A DNA stretch of 64,000 nucleotides from Amnibacterium kyonggiense (GCF_004364555.1 NZ_SOAM01000001.1:930001-994000), one strand, 5' to 3'; shown: positions 9,125 to 17,560, numbered from the stretch's first letter. The notes: generated from the sequence alone by a model not told the origin. Numbers and translations: made by a program.

Positions 9125-9348
9125 CGGTCGGGCGTCCAGACGAGGGGGCGGCGGGTGGCTGGTTGGCGGTTCCGGACCGTACTCCGGCAGTCGCCGGCGG
9201 GCTACCCCCGGACTCCAGGGCACGATCCGTGCACGCCGATGCGGCCCGGACGAATGCGTGTTTTCCCCAATGCGGGCGGTTCGCACGGCGGTGCATCGTG
9301 GCGCTGGGCGTGCCCATCCGACGCCCTCCGACGAGGAAGAAGGAACCA

Positions 9349-10425
9349 GTGTTGAGAATCAGGAGGGCCGCCGCCGTGGCCCTGGTCGCGGGCACCGGGC
9401 TCGCCGCCGTCACCGGGGTCGGCAGTGCCGCCGCCTCGCCGGCCCATCGACCGCACGTCGTGAAGACGCTGCCGGGCGACTACATCGCGCCGCTGCAGTT
9501 CGCCGTCTCGGGCCGCACCGTCGCGGTCGCCGACTCCGGCGCGTCCGCGCTCTACCTCGTCGGGCACCCGAAGCCGATCGCGTTCGGGGGCACGCCGACG
9601 AAGAACCCGGAGGCGAGCGGCGACCTGGCCGGGGTCGACGTCGAGCACGGCCGCATCGGCTACACGCAGAGCAACGCGGACCACACGGACACCCGCTTCA
9701 CCGTGCTGCACCACGGCAAGAAGGTGCTGCAGGTGAGCCTCTCCAGGTACGAGAAGCACCACAACCCGGACGGGCGCATCACGTACGGCTTCACCGACCC
9801 GTCGAAGGTGTCCGACACGTGCCGCGAGCAGATGAAGACCGCGGGACTGGACGTCGTCTACCGGGGGCAGGTCGACTCGCACCCGTACGCGGTCGCCGGG
9901 CTCCGCGACGGCTCCTGGCTGGTGGCCGACGCTGGCGGCAACGACATCCTCCGGATCTCGCAGCGGGGCCACGTGTCGACCGTCGCCGTGCTGCCGCCGC
10001 AGACCGTGACGATCGGCTCCGAGCTCGCGGGACGGTTCGGCGTCACGGCCTGCATCGGGCTCCGCTACCGCTTCGAGGCCGTCCCCACGGATGTCGAGGT
10101 GTCGAAGGGCGGGATCTGGGCGACGACCCTGCCCGGCGGCGCGGGTGGGCTCGGCAGCGTGTACCGGGTCGGCTGGAGCGGCTGGACGCACCGCGTCGCG
10201 ACGGGCTTCGCCGAGGCGACGAACCTCGCCGTCTCGCCGTCCGGCCGCATCTACGTCGTGCAGCTCGGCCAGGGCGTCTTCACGCCGACGAAGCACGGCC
10301 CGAAGCTCGTCGCGGCGCTGCCCGGCGCAGCGGCGGTCGAGTGGGCGAACGGGCGGCTGTACGCCTCCACGGCGCCCGCGGTGACCGGCGGGACCGGTCC
10401 GGGGCACGTCGTCGTCCTCAAGTGA
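9349..10425 (+). CDS. Secreted ScyD/ScyE family beta-propeller protein
   Basis: A 358-residue exported protein. A Sec signal peptide (RIRRAAAVALVAGTGLAAVTG, cut after ...AAASPA) is followed by a propeller-like domain with repeating blade motifs such as GLRDGSWLVADAGGNDILRI and NLAVSPSGRIYVVQLGQG, the pattern of the ScyD/ScyE family. Actinobacterial members are extracellular and of unknown function; scytonemin synthesis is known only for the cyanobacterial ones. Two Cys (SDTCRE, TACIG) may pair. The GTG at 9349 has AAGGAA upstream. A strong terminator follows directly. Confidence 0.85.
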   Translation: MLRIRRAAAVALVAGTGLAAVTGVGSAAASPAHRPHVVKTLPGDYIAPLQFAVSGRTVAVADSGASALYLVGHPKPIAFGGTPTKNPEASGDLAGVDVEHGRIGYTQSNADHTDTRFTVLHHGKKVLQVSLSRYEKHHNPDGRITYGFTDPSKVSDTCREQMKTAGLDVVYRGQVDSHPYAVAGLRDGSWLVADAGGNDILRISQRGHVSTVAVLPPQTVTIGSELAGRFGVTACIGLRYRFEAVPTDVEVSKGGIWATTLPGGAGGLGSVYRVGWSGWTHRVATGFAEATNLAVSPSGRIYVVQLGQGVFTPTKHGPKLVAALPGAAAVEWANGRLYASTAPAVTGGTGPGHVVVLK

Positions 10426-10430
10426 ATCGG

Positions 10431-10478
10431 CGGCCGCGGGGCGGGGATCGGACAGTCTCCCCGCCCCGCGGCCGTTCC
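10431..10478 (+). terminator. Rho-independent terminator of the ScyD-like gene
   Basis: A perfect 17-base G+C-rich stem (arms 10431-10447 and 10458-10474) with a 10-base loop lies 5 bases after the stop codon. It is followed by only a weak T tract, as usual in this group. Confidence 0.8.
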
Positions 10479-10528
10479 GGGCTCGCGCCACGCCGAGCGG
10501 CAGCCGCGGTGCGGTGGAAGCCCCGACT

Positions 10529-10534
10529 TACAGT
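10529..10534 (+). promoter_or_regulatory. -10 box (TACAGT) for leaderless helicase-like gene
   Basis: TACAGT is followed by 6 bases and then the GTG at 10541. This decides the start in favour of 10541 over the GTG at 10514, which lies upstream of the box. Confidence 0.55.
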
Positions 10535-10540
10535 GGCGGC

Positions 10541-13500
10541 GTGCTGCACACGGGTGAGACCGAGGAGAAGACGGAGACCGCTCCGACTCGCCTCGTGACC
10601 GGCGCAGGGGGCGGGTCGACGCCCGGTGCGATCAGCACCGGCGACACCCGCTACACGCCGGTCAACGGCGCGGTCGGCGCCTGGGAGCGCTGGCGCGACG
10701 AGCTGCTCCACGTCGGCGGGGTGTCGCCGCTCATCCGGTTCGAGGACTCGGTCCGCACCCGGATCGAGCTGTCCACGACGCACCCGTCCGGCCTCGCCCA
10801 GTTCATCACCGGTAAGACGACGCTGCTGTCGAACCTGATCCGGGACGACATCGCCTTCCGCACGGCCAGCGCCGCGGCGTCCACGCTCACCGCGAAGGCC
10901 GTCGAGCTCGCGGCGACCCGCGGGTTCGACACCATGCACCTCGCGATCGGGCTCGCGGAGTGGCGGTTCGAGAAGCAGGACTTCCGCGGGCCCGTGCTCC
11001 TCCGCCCGCTCGCGATCCGCCGCTACGGCCGCGACTTCGAGCTGCGGCTGAAGGGTGCCCTGCAGCTGAACCCCGGGCTCGTCACGGCGATGCGGGAGCA
11101 GTTCGACATCGAGCTCGATCCGGACGCCTTCGTCGCGCTGGCACTCTCGGCCGGGGCCTTCAAGCCGCAGCCCGTGATCGACCGGCTGCGCGAGCTGACG
11201 AGCCACCTCCAGCGGTTCAGCGTGCAGCCGCGCCTGCTCATCTCCTCCTTCGGCGAGATCGGGCCCGCGCTGCTCGCCGACGCGCAGGACCTGTCGCACC
11301 CCGTCATCGACGCGGTGGCCGGCAACCCGACGGCGATGGCGCGCATCACGGGCGCGGTCGACCGCGTGGACGTCATCCCGCAGGACCAGCGGCCCCCGAC
11401 GCTCGACGGCGCGCTGCTGGACGCGGACCCGGAGCAGGAGGACGCCGTCGCGGAGATCGCGGCCGGGCACCACCTCGCCGTCCACGCGCTGCCCGGCACC
11501 GGCGCGACGCAGACGATCGTCAACGCGATCGGCGCCCTCGTCGCCCAGCACAAGCGCGTGCTCGTCGTCAGCCCCCGCCATGCGACGCTGCGCGCGGTGT
11601 CGACGCGGCTCGCCGACATCGGCCTGCCGGGCCTGACGGCGTCCGCGCGCTCCGTGCGGCGCGACCTCATCCACGCGATCTCGCGCAACGAGAAGGCGGA
11701 GGCCGCCGAGACGGGCGAGGTGGACGAGGCGCTCATCCGCCTCCGCTCCGTGCTGCTCGACTACCGCGCGGCGCTCGGCCGCCGCGACCCGGTGTTGCGC
11801 GTCAGCGTGCTCGACGCGCTGGGGGAGCTCTCGCGGCTCGCTCTGCTGCCGAGCCCGCCCGCGACGACCGCCCGCCTGTCGACGCGCGCCATGGAGGCGC
11901 TCGCGATGGATCGCGGCGCGGTGCAGGAGGACCTGCTGCGCGCCGCCGCGCTCGGCGAGTTCCGGGTCGGACCGATGGACTCGCCCTGGTACGGCTCGAC
12001 CTTCGCCGACGGCCAGAGCGCCGCGCAGGCGCACCAGCTCGCGAAGCGGCTCCACGCCACGGAGGTCCCGCGGCTGCTCGAGCGCGCCGACGCCCTCATC
12101 GCGGGCTCGCGCTTCCGGCCGTTCGGCACGATCCAGGAGCTCGGGGTCTACCTGAAGCTGCTGCTCGACGTCCGCGAGACGCTCGACAAGTTCCAGCCGG
12201 CCGTGTTCGACCGGTCGCTCGGCGAGCTGATCATCGCGACCGGCCCGCGCCGAGACTCCCGCGAGATGTCGAGCGTGAACCGCCGGCGCCTGAAGCGGCT
12301 CGCGAAGGAGTACCTCCGGCCGGGCGTGCACGTCGCCGACCTCAACGACTGGCTGCAGCGCATCCAGCAGCAGCGGGTGCTGTACCAGCGCTTCGTGTCC
12401 GGCGGCATGACGCCGGACGTGCCCGCCGGCATCACCGACGTGTGGACCGAGTACCAGGCCGTCGCCGCGGACCTCGCCGCCCTGGACGAACCGCTCGGGC
12501 TCGCCGGCACCCCCGACTCGCTGCTGCAGGAGCCGATCGACAACGTCGGCGACCGCCTCGCGGCGCTCGCCGCGGACTCGGACGTGCTCGAGAACCTCCA
12601 GGACCGGCAGACCGTGATGGCGCGGCTGAAGGCGCAGGACCTGGCGCCGCTGCTGGAGGACCTCGCGGGCCGGCACGTGCCGCCGGAGCGGGTCGGCGCC
12701 GAGCTCGAGCTCGCGTGGTGGAAGAGCGTCCTGGAGCGCCTCCTCGCCGACGACCCGGCCCTCCTCGGCGCCAACACGACGGTGCTCGACCGGCTCGAGC
12801 AGGACTTCCGCCTCGTCGACGAGGCGCACGCCGGCGCGAACGCCAAGCGGCTCGCCTGGCAGCTCGCGGACTCGTGGCGGCTCGCACTCGCGGACCGGGG
12901 CGCGGAGGCGGAGGCCCTCCGCGCGCTCCTGCAGGCGAAGGTCGACGACGTCTCGGTGCTGCACCGGGAGGCGCCGCACCTGATCAAGCTGCTCGCGCCC
13001 GTGTGGCTCGCGTCGCCCTACGAGGTCCACGCGCTCGGCGAGGTGACGTTCGACACCGTCTTCGTCGTCGACGCGGGAGCGCTGAGCTTCGCGGAGGGGC
13101 TCGGGGCGGTCCGGCGGGCGAAGCAGGTCGTCGTCTTCGGCGACCCCGTCACGCAGACGCCGATGCCGTTCGACATCGCGATCCGCGAGACCGAGCACGA
13201 GCCGGAGACGCAGAGGCGCCTCGACGACCGGCACGCGGACAGCGTCTTCTCCCGGCTCGCCGCCCTCGTCCCGTCGGTCGAGCTCACCACGAGCTACCGG
13301 GCCGGCGGCGAGGACCTCGCCGAGCTCGTGAACCGGCGCTTCTACGACGGCCGCATCGAGAGCGTGCCCTGGGCCGGCACCTTCCTCGGGCACGGCAGCC
13401 TCGTGCTCGACTACGTCGACAACGGCCATGGCCTGCCCGACGCGGAGAGCGGCACGGTCGAGGCCGTCGAGGCCGAGGTGCAGCGGGTCGTCGAGCGCGT

Positions 13501-14287
13501 GCTCGATCACGCGTCGAGCCGGCCGCGCGAGTCGCTGATGGTGATCTCCGGCAGCGCGAAGCATGCGATCCGGGTGCAGCAGGCCGTGATGAAGGCGCTG
13601 GTGCGCCGCGGCGACGTCACCGAGTTCTTCACGCGCGACCAGGCGGAGCCGTTCATCGTCGTGACGCTCGCGGAGGCCGTCGGACACAGCCGCGACCGGG
13701 TCATCCTGTCGGTCGGCTTCGGGCGGACCCCGCACGGCCGCACGCTGTCGCAGCTCGGGCCGCTCGCGCGTCCGGGCGGGGAGCGGCTGCTTGCGGCCGC
13801 GGTGACGCGGGCGCGCCGGTCGCTCGCCATCGTGTCCTGCTTCCGGCCGGACGACCTCGACGGCGACCGCATGCCGCCCGGCGTGCTCGCCCTCCGTCGA
13901 CTCCTCGCCGACGCCGAGGGGCGGATCGAGGCCGACGTCATCGACGACGACCGCGACGCGATGCTCGTCGACCTCGCCCGGCGCCTCCGCGCCCTCGGCA
14001 TGAAGGCGGCGCTCGGCTACCACGGGAAGCTCGGGCTCGTCGCGTCGTACGGCGCGCGGGCGATCACCGTCGAGACCGACGCGGCGCTGCAGGGCACGAG
14101 CCTGCGGCAGGGCCTCCGGCTGCGGCCCGAGACCCTGAAGCGGCTGGGCTGGCACTACCTCCGCGTCCACAGCTTCGACCTGTTCAGCGACCCGGACGCG
14201 ATCGCCGGCCGGATCGCGATCGCGCTCGGCGCGCGCGAGCCGTCGCCGCTCACGACGACGCTGCCGGTGATCGAGGTCCGCCCCTGA
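10541..14287 (+). CDS. Helicase-like protein, SF1 Upf1/DUF4011-REase_MTES_1575 architecture, degenerate motifs
   Basis: A 1248-residue protein with the layout of large actinobacterial SF1 helicases that end in a restriction-endonuclease-like domain. The catalytic residues are missing throughout. The Walker A loop reads LPGTGATQT (317-325), with Ala322 where Lys is required. Walker B reads VFVVDAGA, with Ala845 replacing Glu. The sensor GDPKQL-type motif is GDPVTQTP, and the QGDERD motif is VGHSRD. The C-terminal nuclease domain keeps VETDA and the LGWHYLRVHSFDLF tail, but the usual IDLA aspartate is replaced (LGLVAS). The frame is intact over 3.7 kb, so it is a maintained pseudoenzyme rather than a decaying gene. 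A 61-codon gene follows with overlap. Confidence 0.8.
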   Translation: MLHTGETEEKTETAPTRLVTGAGGGSTPGAISTGDTRYTPVNGAVGAWERWRDELLHVGGVSPLIRFEDSVRTRIELSTTHPSGLAQFITGKTTLLSNLIRDDIAFRTASAAASTLTAKAVELAATRGFDTMHLAIGLAEWRFEKQDFRGPVLLRPLAIRRYGRDFELRLKGALQLNPGLVTAMREQFDIELDPDAFVALALSAGAFKPQPVIDRLRELTSHLQRFSVQPRLLISSFGEIGPALLADAQDLSHPVIDAVAGNPTAMARITGAVDRVDVIPQDQRPPTLDGALLDADPEQEDAVAEIAAGHHLAVHALPGTGATQTIVNAIGALVAQHKRVLVVSPRHATLRAVSTRLADIGLPGLTASARSVRRDLIHAISRNEKAEAAETGEVDEALIRLRSVLLDYRAALGRRDPVLRVSVLDALGELSRLALLPSPPATTARLSTRAMEALAMDRGAVQEDLLRAAALGEFRVGPMDSPWYGSTFADGQSAAQAHQLAKRLHATEVPRLLERADALIAGSRFRPFGTIQELGVYLKLLLDVRETLDKFQPAVFDRSLGELIIATGPRRDSREMSSVNRRRLKRLAKEYLRPGVHVADLNDWLQRIQQQRVLYQRFVSGGMTPDVPAGITDVWTEYQAVAADLAALDEPLGLAGTPDSLLQEPIDNVGDRLAALAADSDVLENLQDRQTVMARLKAQDLAPLLEDLAGRHVPPERVGAELELAWWKSVLERLLADDPALLGANTTVLDRLEQDFRLVDEAHAGANAKRLAWQLADSWRLALADRGAEAEALRALLQAKVDDVSVLHREAPHLIKLLAPVWLASPYEVHALGEVTFDTVFVVDAGALSFAEGLGAVRRAKQVVVFGDPVTQTPMPFDIAIRETEHEPETQRRLDDRHADSVFSRLAALVPSVELTTSYRAGGEDLAELVNRRFYDGRIESVPWAGTFLGHGSLVLDYVDNGHGLPDAESGTVEAVEAEVQRVVERVLDHASSRPRESLMVISGSAKHAIRVQQAVMKALVRRGDVTEFFTRDQAEPFIVVTLAEAVGHSRDRVILSVGFGRTPHGRTLSQLGPLARPGGERLLAAAVTRARRSLAIVSCFRPDDLDGDRMPPGVLALRRLLADAEGRIEADVIDDDRDAMLVDLARRLRALGMKAALGYHGKLGLVASYGARAITVETDAALQGTSLRQGLRLRPETLKRLGWHYLRVHSFDLFSDPDAIAGRIAIALGAREPSPLTTTLPVIEVRP

Positions 14288-14469
14288 GCGAGCCACGCCG
14301 TCGGCACCGCCGTGTCCGGACCGAGCCGGTCCCGGGTTCCGATCCGACCCCGTCGTCGGGGGAGCGCGCGGCGGAGGACGAGCCGTCCTCCTGGGGCGAC
14401 GCCGCGCCGAGCCCGGACAGCGCGAACGACGCCCGCCTGAAGGCGGACAAGCCGCCCCACTGGGGCTGA
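14284..14469 (+). CDS. Small basic/acidic protein ending in PPHWG, CTG start
   Basis: A 61-residue protein: basic N-terminus (SEPRRRHRRVR), Pro/Ser/Glu-rich middle, and a C-terminus NDARLKADKPPHWG that I recognise as a recurrent ending of small Microbacteriaceae proteins. No ATG, GTG or TTG occurs in frame before the homologous part; the only candidate is CTG at 14284, which overlaps the helicase stop as CTGA in the same way GTGA overlaps do elsewhere here. Function unknown. The gene is short enough to be missed by automatic callers because of its start. Confidence 0.5.
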   Translation: MSEPRRRHRRVRTEPVPGSDPTPSSGERAAEDEPSSWGDAAPSPDSANDARLKADKPPHWG

Positions 14470-14475
14470 GCACCT

Positions 14476-14547
14476 CGCTGCGGGGGCTCCGCGCGGCTGA
14501 TGGGGCGGCGCGCACCGCCCCGGCAGCCGCGGGGAGCCCCCGCAGCG
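14476..14547. terminator. Bidirectional nested hairpin between helicase operon and mscL
   Basis: Perfect 15-base outer arms (14476-14490 and 14533-14547) enclose two further complementary pairs (around 14493-14499/14524-14530 and 14502-14508/14515-14521). It sits between two convergent genes and would terminate both. Confidence 0.7.
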
Positions 14548-14558
14548 GAGTGGGTCGG

Positions 14559-14996
14559 TCAGTCCTGGTTCAGGATGCGCTTGTCGCCGACCCGCTGCTG
14601 GCCCTCGAGGAGGTCGCGGATCTGCGCGAGCAGGTCCAGCTCCGTCGGGGGAGCGGGCGTGTCGGAGACGGGCTCGGCGGGCTTCTGGAACGCGCGCTTC
14701 AGGAGCGCGTTCATCGGGACGACGAACACGAAGTAGACGACCAGGGCGGTGATGAGGAACGTGATCACCGCCGCGAGGACGGCGCCGAACTTCAGCTCCG
14801 CGACCCCGGAGGTCAGCGGGATCCTGACGATGCCCGTCGCCGCCAGGTCCTTCGCGTTGAAGAGCGCGCCGATCAGCGGCGTGAAGATGTTCGTGACCAC
14901 CGCTCCGACGATCGCCGTGAACGCTGCTCCGATCACCACCGCGACCGCGAGGTCCATGACGTTGCCGCGGAGGATGAACTCTTTGAAACCCTTCAT
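14559..14996 (-). CDS. mscL: Large-conductance mechanosensitive channel MscL
   Basis: 145 residues, the normal family size. It opens under membrane tension and releases solutes during hypo-osmotic shock, as a homopentamer in the cytoplasmic membrane. The N-terminal amphipathic helix and pore helix read MKGFKEFILRGNVMDLAVAV, with the second helix at about residues 70-95 and a C-terminal bundle helix LDLLAQIRDLL. A TAGACA box lies 6 bases before the ATG, so the message may be leaderless. It is transcribed away from fmdB in the same direction. Confidence 0.97.
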   Translation of the reverse strand: MKGFKEFILRGNVMDLAVAVVIGAAFTAIVGAVVTNIFTPLIGALFNAKDLAATGIVRIPLTSGVAELKFGAVLAAVITFLITALVVYFVFVVPMNALLKRAFQKPAEPVSDTPAPPTELDLLAQIRDLLEGQQRVGDKRILNQD

Positions 14997-15039: not shown

Positions 15040-15360
15040 TCAAGCGGAGGACGAGGACGACCCGGAGGACGCGCTCGACGAGGCCGCCGGCTTCGCCGCG
15101 CCGGCGTCGGACTTCGCGGCCGCCGGCTTCGCGGAGTCGCCCTTCGACTCGGCCGGCTTCGCGGCCGCGCCGTCGCCCGACCCCGCGCGGGAGTCCGTGC
15201 GGTAGAAGCCGGAGCCGTTGAAGGTCACACCGATCGACCCGTACTGCTTCCGGAGGGCGCCGCCGCAGACCGGGCACTCGGTGAGGGGCGCGTCGCTGAA
15301 CTCCTGGTGCACCTCGAGCGGGGTGCCGCAGTCGCGGCACTTGTAGGCGTACACGGGCAT
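15040..15360 (-). CDS. FmdB family zinc-ribbon protein
   Basis: A 106-residue protein. Residues 1-45 form a zinc ribbon with two CxxC pairs, CRDCG and CPVCGG, in the FmdB/CxxC_CxxC_SSSS arrangement. The rest is a low-complexity Ala/Lys/Ser tail ending in a serine run. Homologues are linked to formamidase expression in methylotrophs, but the role in actinobacteria is unknown. It starts 6 bases after the cyclo-ligase stop and is probably co-transcribed with it. Confidence 0.9.
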   Translation of the reverse strand: MPVYAYKCRDCGTPLEVHQEFSDAPLTECPVCGGALRKQYGSIGVTFNGSGFYRTDSRAGSGDGAAAKPAESKGDSAKPAAAKSDAGAAKPAASSSASSGSSSSSA

Positions 15361-15366
15361 GGGCGG

Positions 15367-15978
15367 TCAGATCCTCCGTCGGCGGGCGGAGCGGGTGGAG
15401 AACTCCACGGTCCTCGTCGGGGTCACGACGCCGTCGATGGCCTGGTCGTGCCGTTCTCTCGGCACCTCGTCCACCAGCTCGGAGTCGAAGAGTACCCCGT
15501 ACACCGGCGGGCACCGCTCCATCGACCCGAGCGTCTTGTCGTAGTAGCCGCGTCCCCAGCCGAGGCGCATCCCGGACCGGTCGACGGAGGCCGCGGGGAC
15601 GACGATCAGGTCGACGTCGTTGATCGCGATCGGGCCGAGCAGCTCGCCGACGGGCTCGGGCGTCCCGGCGAGGCCGGTCACCTCCTCCTCGTCGTCCGTG
15701 GCGGTCGTCCAGTCGAGCAGCCCGTCGGTGCGGGTGATGGGGAACAGCACCCGGATGCCGGCGTCCCGCGCCCAGTTCACGAACGGCCGCGTGTCCGGCT
15801 CGTCGGTCGCGGACAGGTAGCAGGAGACCGATCGTGCGCCGACCTGCCGGGTCAGCGCGATGAGGTGCTCGGTGATCCCGGCGGCCGCTGCGGCGCGCTC
15901 GTCGCGGGTGAGATTCCGGCGCCGCTCGCGCAGCTCGGCGCGGAGTGCCCGTTTCTGGGGTGCGAGATCGCCCGTCAT
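15367..15978 (-). CDS. 5-formyltetrahydrofolate cyclo-ligase
   Basis: 203 residues, the usual length. It converts 5-formyl-THF and ATP to 5,10-methenyl-THF, recycling folate in the cytosol. The N-terminal KRALRAELRERRRNL segment contributes the nucleotide-binding Lys/Arg residues and the family signature RLGWGRGYYDK is near residue 140. The start is supported by a TAGAAT box exactly 6 bases upstream (15985-15990). It is divergent from galU with only 39 bases between the two start codons and is followed by fmdB. Confidence 0.93.
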   Translation of the reverse strand: MTGDLAPQKRALRAELRERRRNLTRDERAAAAAGITEHLIALTRQVGARSVSCYLSATDEPDTRPFVNWARDAGIRVLFPITRTDGLLDWTTATDDEEEVTGLAGTPEPVGELLGPIAINDVDLIVVPAASVDRSGMRLGWGRGYYDKTLGSMERCPPVYGVLFDSELVDEVPRERHDQAIDGVVTPTRTVEFSTRSARRRRI

Positions 15979-16017: not shown

Positions 16018-16908
16018 ATGGCGTACCACATCACCAAGGCCGTGATCCCGGCCGCCGGTCTCGGGACCCGCTTCCTGCCGGCGACGAAGGCGATGCCCAA
16101 GGAGATGCTCCCCGTCGTCGACAAGCCGGCCATCCAGTACGTGGTGGAGGAGGCCGTCGCCGCGGGCCTCAACGACGTGCTCATGGTGACCGGGCGGAAC
16201 AAGTACGCGCTCGAGAACCATTTCGACCGCGTCTACGAGCTCGAGGCGACGCTCGAGAACAAGGGCGACCACGCGAAGCTCCAGCGCGTCCGCGAGTCGA
16301 CGAACATCGCCGACATCCACTACTTCCGCCAGGGCGACCCGCGCGGACTCGGCCACGCGGTCCTCCAGGCGCGCATGCACGTCGGGCACGAGCCCTTCGC
16401 GGTCCTGCTCGGCGACGACCTGATCGACGAGCGCGACCCGCTGCTGAAGCGCATGATCGAGGAGTCGAGCAAGCGCAACGCCTCCGTCGTCGCCCTGCTC
16501 GAGGTGGACCCCGACCAGATCCACCTCTACGGCGCCGCGAAGGTCGAGGCGACCGACGAGGACGACGTCGTGCGCATCACCGGCCTCGTCGAGAAGCCGT
16601 CCAAGGAGACCGCGCCCTCCAACTACGCGATCATCGGCCGCTACGTCCTGAAGCCGGAGATCTTCCCGATCCTCGAGCACACGGCCCCCGGCAAGGGCGG
16701 CGAGATCCAGCTCACGGACGCGCTCGAGGAGATGGCCGGCGCCACCTGGACGGGCGGCGTCTACGGCGTCGTCTTCCGCGGCCGCCGCTACGACACCGGC
16801 GACAAGATCGACTACATCAAGGCGATCGTGCAGCTCGCCTCCGAGCGCGACGACCTGGGGCCCGAGCTGCGGCCCTGGCTCGCCGAGTTCGTCGCCGGCC
16901 TCGACTGA
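16018..16908 (+). CDS. galU: UTP-glucose-1-phosphate uridylyltransferase
   Basis: A 296-residue enzyme making UDP-glucose from UTP and glucose-1-phosphate, the precursor of cell-envelope sugars and galactose metabolism. The nucleotide-binding signature VIPAAGLGTRFLPATKAMPK lies near the N-terminus, with LLGDDLIDE and the substrate motif EKPS further on, and the C-terminal RRYDTGDKIDY. The length and all motifs are standard. A GNAT gene starts 5 bases downstream and is likely in the same transcript. Confidence 0.96.
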   Translation: MAYHITKAVIPAAGLGTRFLPATKAMPKEMLPVVDKPAIQYVVEEAVAAGLNDVLMVTGRNKYALENHFDRVYELEATLENKGDHAKLQRVRESTNIADIHYFRQGDPRGLGHAVLQARMHVGHEPFAVLLGDDLIDERDPLLKRMIEESSKRNASVVALLEVDPDQIHLYGAAKVEATDEDDVVRITGLVEKPSKETAPSNYAIIGRYVLKPEIFPILEHTAPGKGGEIQLTDALEEMAGATWTGGVYGVVFRGRRYDTGDKIDYIKAIVQLASERDDLGPELRPWLAEFVAGLD

Positions 16909-16912
16909 GCCG

Positions 16913-17560
16913 GTGGTCGTGCCCGTCCCCACCCTGCGCTCCGGCAGGGTCGGCATCCGTCCCATCCGCCTCCGCGACGCCCGCGCCATGGAGCGCGAGC
17001 TCGTGGAGGGGCGCGGCTGGATGCGCGAGTGGGAGGCGACGAGCCCGCGCGGCTCGATCGGCTTCGACACCCGCTCGAGCATCCGCGCGCTGCAGCAGAA
17101 CGCCCGCACCGGGCAGGGGCTGCCGTTCGTCATCGAGGTCGACGGGGAGCTCGCCGGCCAGCTGAACGTGACGTCGATCGCGTACGGCTCGCTGTCGTCC
17201 GGGACGATCGGCTACTGGATCGCGGAGCGCTTCGCCGGCATCGGCGCGACCCCGACCGCGGTCGCGCTCGCGACGGACCACTGCTTCCAGGCGCTCGGGC
17301 TGCACCGGATGGAGATCTGCATCCGGCCCGAGAACGCGAAGTCGCTGCGGGTCGTCGAGAAGCTCGGCTTCCGCTACGAGGGGCTCAAGCGTCGCTACAT
17401 CCACATCAACGGCGACTGGCGGGACCACTTCTGCTTCGGTCTCGTGACCGAGGAGGTGCCGGAGGGCGTCCTCCGGCGCTGGCAGGACGGGCGCGCGCCG
17501 CAGCGCGCCGCGGACGTGCCGGAGGCGGACCGCCGCCTCGCGGCGACGCCCTTCCCCTGA
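16913..17560 (+). CDS. GNAT N-acetyltransferase, RimJ/RimL type
   Basis: 215 residues of the GNAT fold, RimJ/RimL subgroup, which acetylates protein N-termini or other amines using acetyl-CoA. The acetyl-CoA-binding strand-helix is IGYWIAERFAGIGATPTAVA, followed by the HRMEICIRPENAKSLRVVEK segment characteristic of the subgroup. The gene follows galU by 5 bases; this pairing is common in the family Microbacteriaceae. Start may be GTG 16913 or GTG 16919. Confidence 0.88.
   Translation: MVVPVPTLRSGRVGIRPIRLRDARAMERELVEGRGWMREWEATSPRGSIGFDTRSSIRALQQNARTGQGLPFVIEVDGELAGQLNVTSIAYGSLSSGTIGYWIAERFAGIGATPTAVALATDHCFQALGLHRMEICIRPENAKSLRVVEKLGFRYEGLKRRYIHINGDWRDHFCFGLVTEEVPEGVLRRWQDGRAPQRAADVPEADRRLAATPFP

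Follow-up and report, generated by a model that had tools for sequence, protein, structure and literature searches.

A candidate pseudohelicase from a helicase–nuclease lineage and its PPHW partner beside mscL in Amnibacterium kyonggiense

A helicase–nuclease-like gene and its small partner

The window, by which we mean the whole stretch of 64,000 nucleotides of Amnibacterium kyonggiense that was analyzed (GCF_004364555.1, NZ_SOAM01000001.1:930001-994000), contains on its plus strand an open frame of 1248 codons plus TGA (Table 1), which is the only copy of this helicase–nuclease gene in the genome. An earlier note on the same DNA had described the frame as free of disruption, and this is so: homologs on the plus strand were found in 60 of the 60 relatives examined, and nearly all relatives of the same family have full-length open frames with no internal stop (39–91% identity). 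The start codon is uncertain, the candidates being GTG at 10514, 10541, or 10595. An antisense frame of 1365 codons (10418-14515, minus strand) spans the whole gene and was rejected as a high-GC artifact because the homologs sit on the plus strand. Upstream lies an ORF on the plus strand (9229-10425; ~398 amino acids) that has no Pfam match and bears a ScyD-like label given by eye only; it is kept within the genus (L003 and L068) and was not detected at the loci of other families.

Table 1. Features at the locus, in window coordinates
Feature	Coordinates	Strand	Evidence
Putative pseudohelicase–pseudonuclease, 1248 aa	10541..14287	+	open frame, homologs, motif alignment, dN/dS, predicted fold
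DUF4011-like N-terminal segment, aa 109-180	10865..11080	+	weak Pfam match (E 6e-4); conservation
Walker A, probably dead, LPGTGATQTI (Lys322 to Ala)	11489..11518	+	alignment
Non-motor middle region, aa 401-780	11741..12880	+	conservation comparison, active versus dead members
Walker B, probably dead, VFVVDAGA (FDEAS in active orthologs)	13058..13081	+	alignment
Altered motif III, FGDPVTQTPM (GDERQLPPT in active orthologs)	13136..13165	+	alignment
Altered motif V, VGHSRDR (QGDERDA in active orthologs), Arg1051-Asp1052 kept	13679..13699	+	alignment
Motif VI, VTRARRS, arginines kept in the window's family	13802..13822	+	alignment
MTES_1575/Vsr-like nuclease domain lacking the first Asp (KLGLVA for RIDLAV)	14000..14218	+	weak Pfam match (E 6e-4); alignment
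Small PPHW protein, 61 aa, ...WGD...NDARLKADKPPHWG, CTG start overlapping the helicase stop (C-TGA)	14284..14469	+	synteny, motif model
mscL, conserved neighbor	14559..14996	-	Pfam PF01741; synteny
FmdB-type zinc-ribbon protein, conserved neighbor	15040..15360	-	Pfam PF09723; synteny
5-formyltetrahydrofolate cyclo-ligase, conserved neighbor	15367..15978	-	Pfam PF01812; synteny
galU-like nucleotidyltransferase, conserved neighbor	16018..16908	+	Pfam PF00483; synteny
RimJ-like acetyltransferase, conserved neighbor	16913..17560	+	Pfam PF13302; synteny

The catalytic motifs were read against those of intact orthologs in an alignment. Where the intact proteins have the Walker A sequence GPPGTGKSQT, the lysine is replaced in the window by alanine (K322A), as the earlier note had claimed; its readings of GDPVTQTP and VGHSRD as altered motifs and of a missing nuclease aspartate were likewise correct. 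The intact orthologs have GDERQLPPT and QGDERD at these two motifs, and in the former Gln871 is lost in the window (Q871T). In the nuclease strands active orthologs keep both RIDLAV and VExDG, the latter of which reads VETDA in the window. The note had also described a Glu-to-Ala change in Walker B, and that motif is indeed altered, but FDEAS aligns with VVDAG as Asp to Val and Glu to Asp. Nor is every catalytic motif degenerated: most are altered, but Gly867-Asp868, Arg920, Arg1051-Asp1052, and the TRARR of motif VI are kept. The protein therefore lacks the residues expected of an active SF1 helicase, namely the Walker A Lys, the Walker B Asp-Glu pair (DE to VD), and the motif III Gln. Its match to the MTES_1575/Vsr-like model (Pfam PF18741) is 20.2 bits, below the gathering cut-off of 38.2, whereas active orthologs score 71 and 121 bits. 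Judged from these alignments, the window's protein is probably catalytically dead both as a helicase and as a nuclease.

The small coupled partner that the earlier note had proposed is a 61-residue ORF that is conserved downstream of the helicase and repeatedly fused to it. It ends in NDARLKADKPPHWG in the window and in NDxRLxxDxPPHW(G) more generally, and the pattern WG[DE]...D-x-[RWE]-L-x(2)-[DE]-x-PPHW was found adjoining or fused to the helicase. A downstream ORF ending in PPH[WHFYM] is present at 58 of 66 loci of the order, as against 0 of 66 in upstream and 0 of 66 in antisense controls. Fusions in frame to the helicase C-terminus occur in members of seven families (f1, f6, f10, f14, f16, f18, and f19), and a dead homolog with the same arrangement is found in a family at the level of the class (f38); no PPHW ORF was detected with the dead protein in family f20 or in genomes G021 and G042. 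When a natural fusion was modeled, the PPHW tail was not docked with confidence (pLDDT about 50–62). The only plausible start of the small ORF in the window is CTG, there being no ATG, GTG, or TTG inside it, and the CTG at the helicase stop (C-TGA) is common to the six congeneric species examined, the window's included; other members of the family have an ATGA or GTGA overlap. A −1 frameshift that would create a fusion in this genus was also considered, but no slippery heptamer is common to the six species, and coupling at CTGA is therefore preferred.

The pair is set in a conserved locus, mscL–fmdB–5-FCL–galU–rimJ. A paper on the M. tuberculosis chaperone Rv0991c, to which the FmdB-type neighbor may be linked, contains no reference to FmdB. 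A class-wide search with a 39-position model recovered the PPHW protein in 102 of 148 genomes, usually adjoining mscL and in many cases without the pseudohelicase (L198–L227). The PPHW protein is older than its association with the pseudohelicase. Against Pfam the small proteins gave no match and against NCBIfam nothing above chance level, and a literature search on PPHW returned unrelated papers only.

Distribution and repeated loss of catalytic residues

Within its order the helicase–nuclease is a core gene that is inherited vertically and is nearly universal. The family profile matches 117 of 119 genomes of the order, the two misses being genomes that are 62% and 92% complete, and the gene is still carried by reduced genomes of 0.8 and 0.9 Mb (G089 and G021); outside the order its occurrence is patchy. 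A gene tree built with the motif columns removed groups almost every family together (24 changes for 24 groups; f3, f8, and f14 do not form clean groups), the pattern that vertical descent would produce.

Scoring of the motifs in some 130 proteins revealed that the P-loop Lys is absent in 16 families of the order, the position of Lys322 being held by A, V, T, G, Q, S, and others, with comparable losses in Walker B, in motif III, and of the nuclease Asp. The altered motifs are fixed across whole families: most members of the window's family, with few exceptions, share a Walker A sequence of the form PGTG[GA]TQT. In family f5, meanwhile, the motifs are intact, and f18 (Dermatophilaceae/Intrasporangiaceae: Terrabacter, Knoellia, Intrasporangium, and Phycicoccus) is a mixture of mostly intact proteins. 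Within f18 a Phycicoccus subclade has lost the P-loop Lys (GTGASQT) and has Glu or Gly in place of the nuclease Asp. We note that the loss is seen in Phycicoccus and relatives at L254–L257, L262, L271, L280, and L282, the close relatives L250 and L252 being intact. Mobilicoccus (L260, L264, and L285) keeps the P-loop Lys and has lost motifs III, IV, and VI, which probably represents a different route to inactivity.

These substitutions bear on whether the protein could be a cryptic enzyme that hydrolyzes NTP or cuts nucleic acid by means of non-canonical residues, much as certain kinases use a relocated lysine. The window's family does keep the P-loop glycines, Gly867-Asp868, Arg920, Arg1051-Asp1052, and the motif VI arginines, as such an enzyme might. 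Residue 322 varies freely, however, as do both acidic positions of Walker B and the motif III Gln, and the motif VI Arg is gone in many members of f3, f4, f9, f10, f14, and f20, so that we regard cryptic activity as unlikely.

On the tree the intact clade of f5 and f18 branches as sister to all other members of the order, with the intact proteins of the outgroup at the root. At least four changes in the state of the Lys are required, and a tree that groups every Lys-less protein into one clade is rejected (delta lnL 333; AU p 0.00014). By parsimony alone, several losses and one loss followed by a re-gain in f5/f18 are both allowed; if the re-gain of a whole active site is taken to be implausible, the catalytic residues appear to have been lost several times independently from an intact ancestor. 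The intact orthologs of the order sit at the same locus and have the PPHW partner, which argues against their recent replacement by transfer. The intact outgroup copies have neither the PPHW partner nor synteny at the locus, and they match PDC-S37, a family considered below, at E 1e-272 or better.

Fold and constraint

An AlphaFold2 model of the window's protein is confident (pLDDT 88.6) and shows an intact SF1B (Upf1-like) fold with two RecA-like domains in an Upf1-like arrangement. Comparison with VIA-align gave Z scores of 20.5 for IGHMBP2, 20.3 for Dna2, and 20.2 for UPF1, matches that cover the helicase motor (~500 residues). The gene product combines an SF1 helicase fold of the Upf1/IGHMBP2 type with a Vsr-like nuclease.

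The fold bears also on whether the protein stands in for a recombination helicase–nuclease as an inactive subunit of a resection complex. RecC and AddB, in which inactive helicase or nuclease folds serve as structural subunits, are precedents for such a role. The best matches of the window's protein, however, are Upf1-like SF1B rather than UvrD/RecB-like, and its own genome has an AdnAB-like pair (two neighboring PDDEXK_1 frames of 1174 and 1147 amino acids), which makes this explanation very unlikely.

What selection acts on differs between intact and dead members. In intact proteins the highest information content is found at the motor motifs (3.4–3.75 bits), whereas dead proteins have no such peak. 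In the latter, residues 81–120, 401–440, and 521–640 come close to the degree of conservation found in intact proteins, and residues 81–120 are among their best-conserved positions. Conservation has thus moved from the motor motifs to non-motor regions, an indication that selection still protects the non-motor body. Within the genus, dN/dS obtained by a simple counting method is 0.12–0.33, which indicates purifying selection that keeps the protein.

Hence it is scarcely credible that the gene is a decaying remnant, whether a pseudogene or a nearly neutral leftover of an active helicase–nuclease, even though the catalytic motifs have been lost in many ways. The earlier note had held that orthologs with a canonical Lys and Glu would mark this copy as simply decaying. 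Such orthologs do exist (Dermatophilaceae and f5), and at the same locus, but they point to repeated loss from an active ancestor and not to decay of the window's copy: besides the low dN/dS and the dead motifs fixed across the whole family, almost all 60 relatives have full-length frames, the gene is present almost throughout the order and is kept in genomes of less than 1 Mb, and the predicted fold is intact. The note's central claim, a conserved pseudohelicase, is supported by the fixed substitutions, the purifying selection, and the fold, which is under selection with its catalytic motifs lost.

Proposed role and comparison with known systems

The protein might also be an inactive anti-phage helicase that serves as a decoy, titrating phage inhibitors, or as a sensor that guards the host. 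The closest described families (PDC-S37, ProA, and Hhe) are anti-phage, and recurrent loss of activity would suit such a role. We nonetheless consider it improbable, because the gene is inherited vertically by almost every genome of the order, in synteny with housekeeping genes, and is not patchily distributed there, because it is present in strongly reduced genomes, and because no active paralog that it could protect was found in the window's genome. The same lack of an active paralog makes it unlikely that the protein regulates one.

Our preferred reading, to which we assign a probability of roughly 0.6, is that the protein is a pseudohelicase derived from a defense-type helicase–nuclease, a core gene in which catalysis has been lost repeatedly and whose product acts as a scaffold tied to the PPHW docking peptide. 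A role as scaffold or regulator is what we infer for the pseudohelicase. The simplest account of its origin is apparently that a defense-type enzyme was domesticated and later became a pseudoenzyme: an active enzyme of the PDC-S37/ProA/Hhe type would have become a core gene and then have undergone several catalytic losses, once recently in Phycicoccus. The resulting pseudohelicase would be a scaffold, present in stoichiometric amounts, that holds on to nucleic acid or to a protein complex with no turnover of ATP, and it would be connected through the PPHW peptide to a partner conserved in actinobacteria. Translational coupling where CTGA overlaps would match the levels of the two chains in the window's genus, and fusion would do so elsewhere. 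More tentatively, we suggest that a class-wide C-terminal docking peptide, not described before, has been wired by one order to a domesticated, repeatedly inactivated anti-phage helicase–nuclease that is now a structural rather than an enzymatic component, forming a new housekeeping complex.

If this is correct, a whole order has adopted a member of a phage-defense enzyme family as a core gene, and its catalysis has been lost repeatedly, the intact ancestral form surviving in close relatives (Terrabacter, Knoellia, and Intrasporangium) and the loss within Phycicoccus being recent. Such proteins would provide a rare natural series of active, recently dead, and long-dead forms in which to study how an enzyme turns into a scaffold. 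The PPHW protein, in turn, is a class-wide and unannotated small protein whose partner may turn out to be one of the core machines of actinobacteria.

Pseudohelicases are already known as a class; an order-wide, repeatedly inactivated helicase–nuclease with a class-wide PPHW partner was not found in our literature search. A bacterial precedent is PriA of Deinococcus radiodurans, whose motifs have degenerated across a lineage and which reportedly has no ATPase or unwinding activity but keeps DNA binding and a contact with DnaB (PMC4504706). PriA belongs to an unrelated helicase family and has no nuclease domain and no peptide partner, and the helicase–nuclease described here, by comparison, has undergone several losses within a single clade. 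In the yeast SSU processome, a large RNP, the helicase-like component Utp25 has been described as a pseudohelicase (PMC9539457), but it is eukaryotic, comes from another helicase family, and lacks a nuclease. UPF1, IGHMBP2, and Dna2 share the motor fold (Z ~20 over ~500 residues), and the active orthologs match them by sequence as well; these enzymes are active, however, whereas the window's protein is without the P-loop Lys, in-register Walker B acids, and the motif III Gln.

Closest of all are PDC-S37, ProA, and Hhe (PADLOC PDLC05009 and PDLC02194; NCBIfam NF058533 and NF042953), candidate or established anti-phage helicase–nucleases that have the same domain order: a DUF4011-like segment, an SF1 helicase, and an MTES_1575/Vsr-like nuclease. 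A literature search for PDC-S37 found no paper. The window's protein matches PDC-S37 at E 1e-97 and active orthologs do so at 1e-241 or better; against the curated equivalog cut-offs for ProA and Hhe the window's protein falls short, with 302 bits where 1500 are needed and 157 where 2000 are needed. The patchy, mobile, defense-island distribution of ProA- and Hhe-like systems is not seen here either, the gene having conserved synteny across its order. The window's protein has the architecture of these systems but, unlike them, has lost its catalytic motifs; its gene, rather than being a patchy defense gene, belongs to the vertically inherited core, lies next to mscL, and has the PPHW partner.
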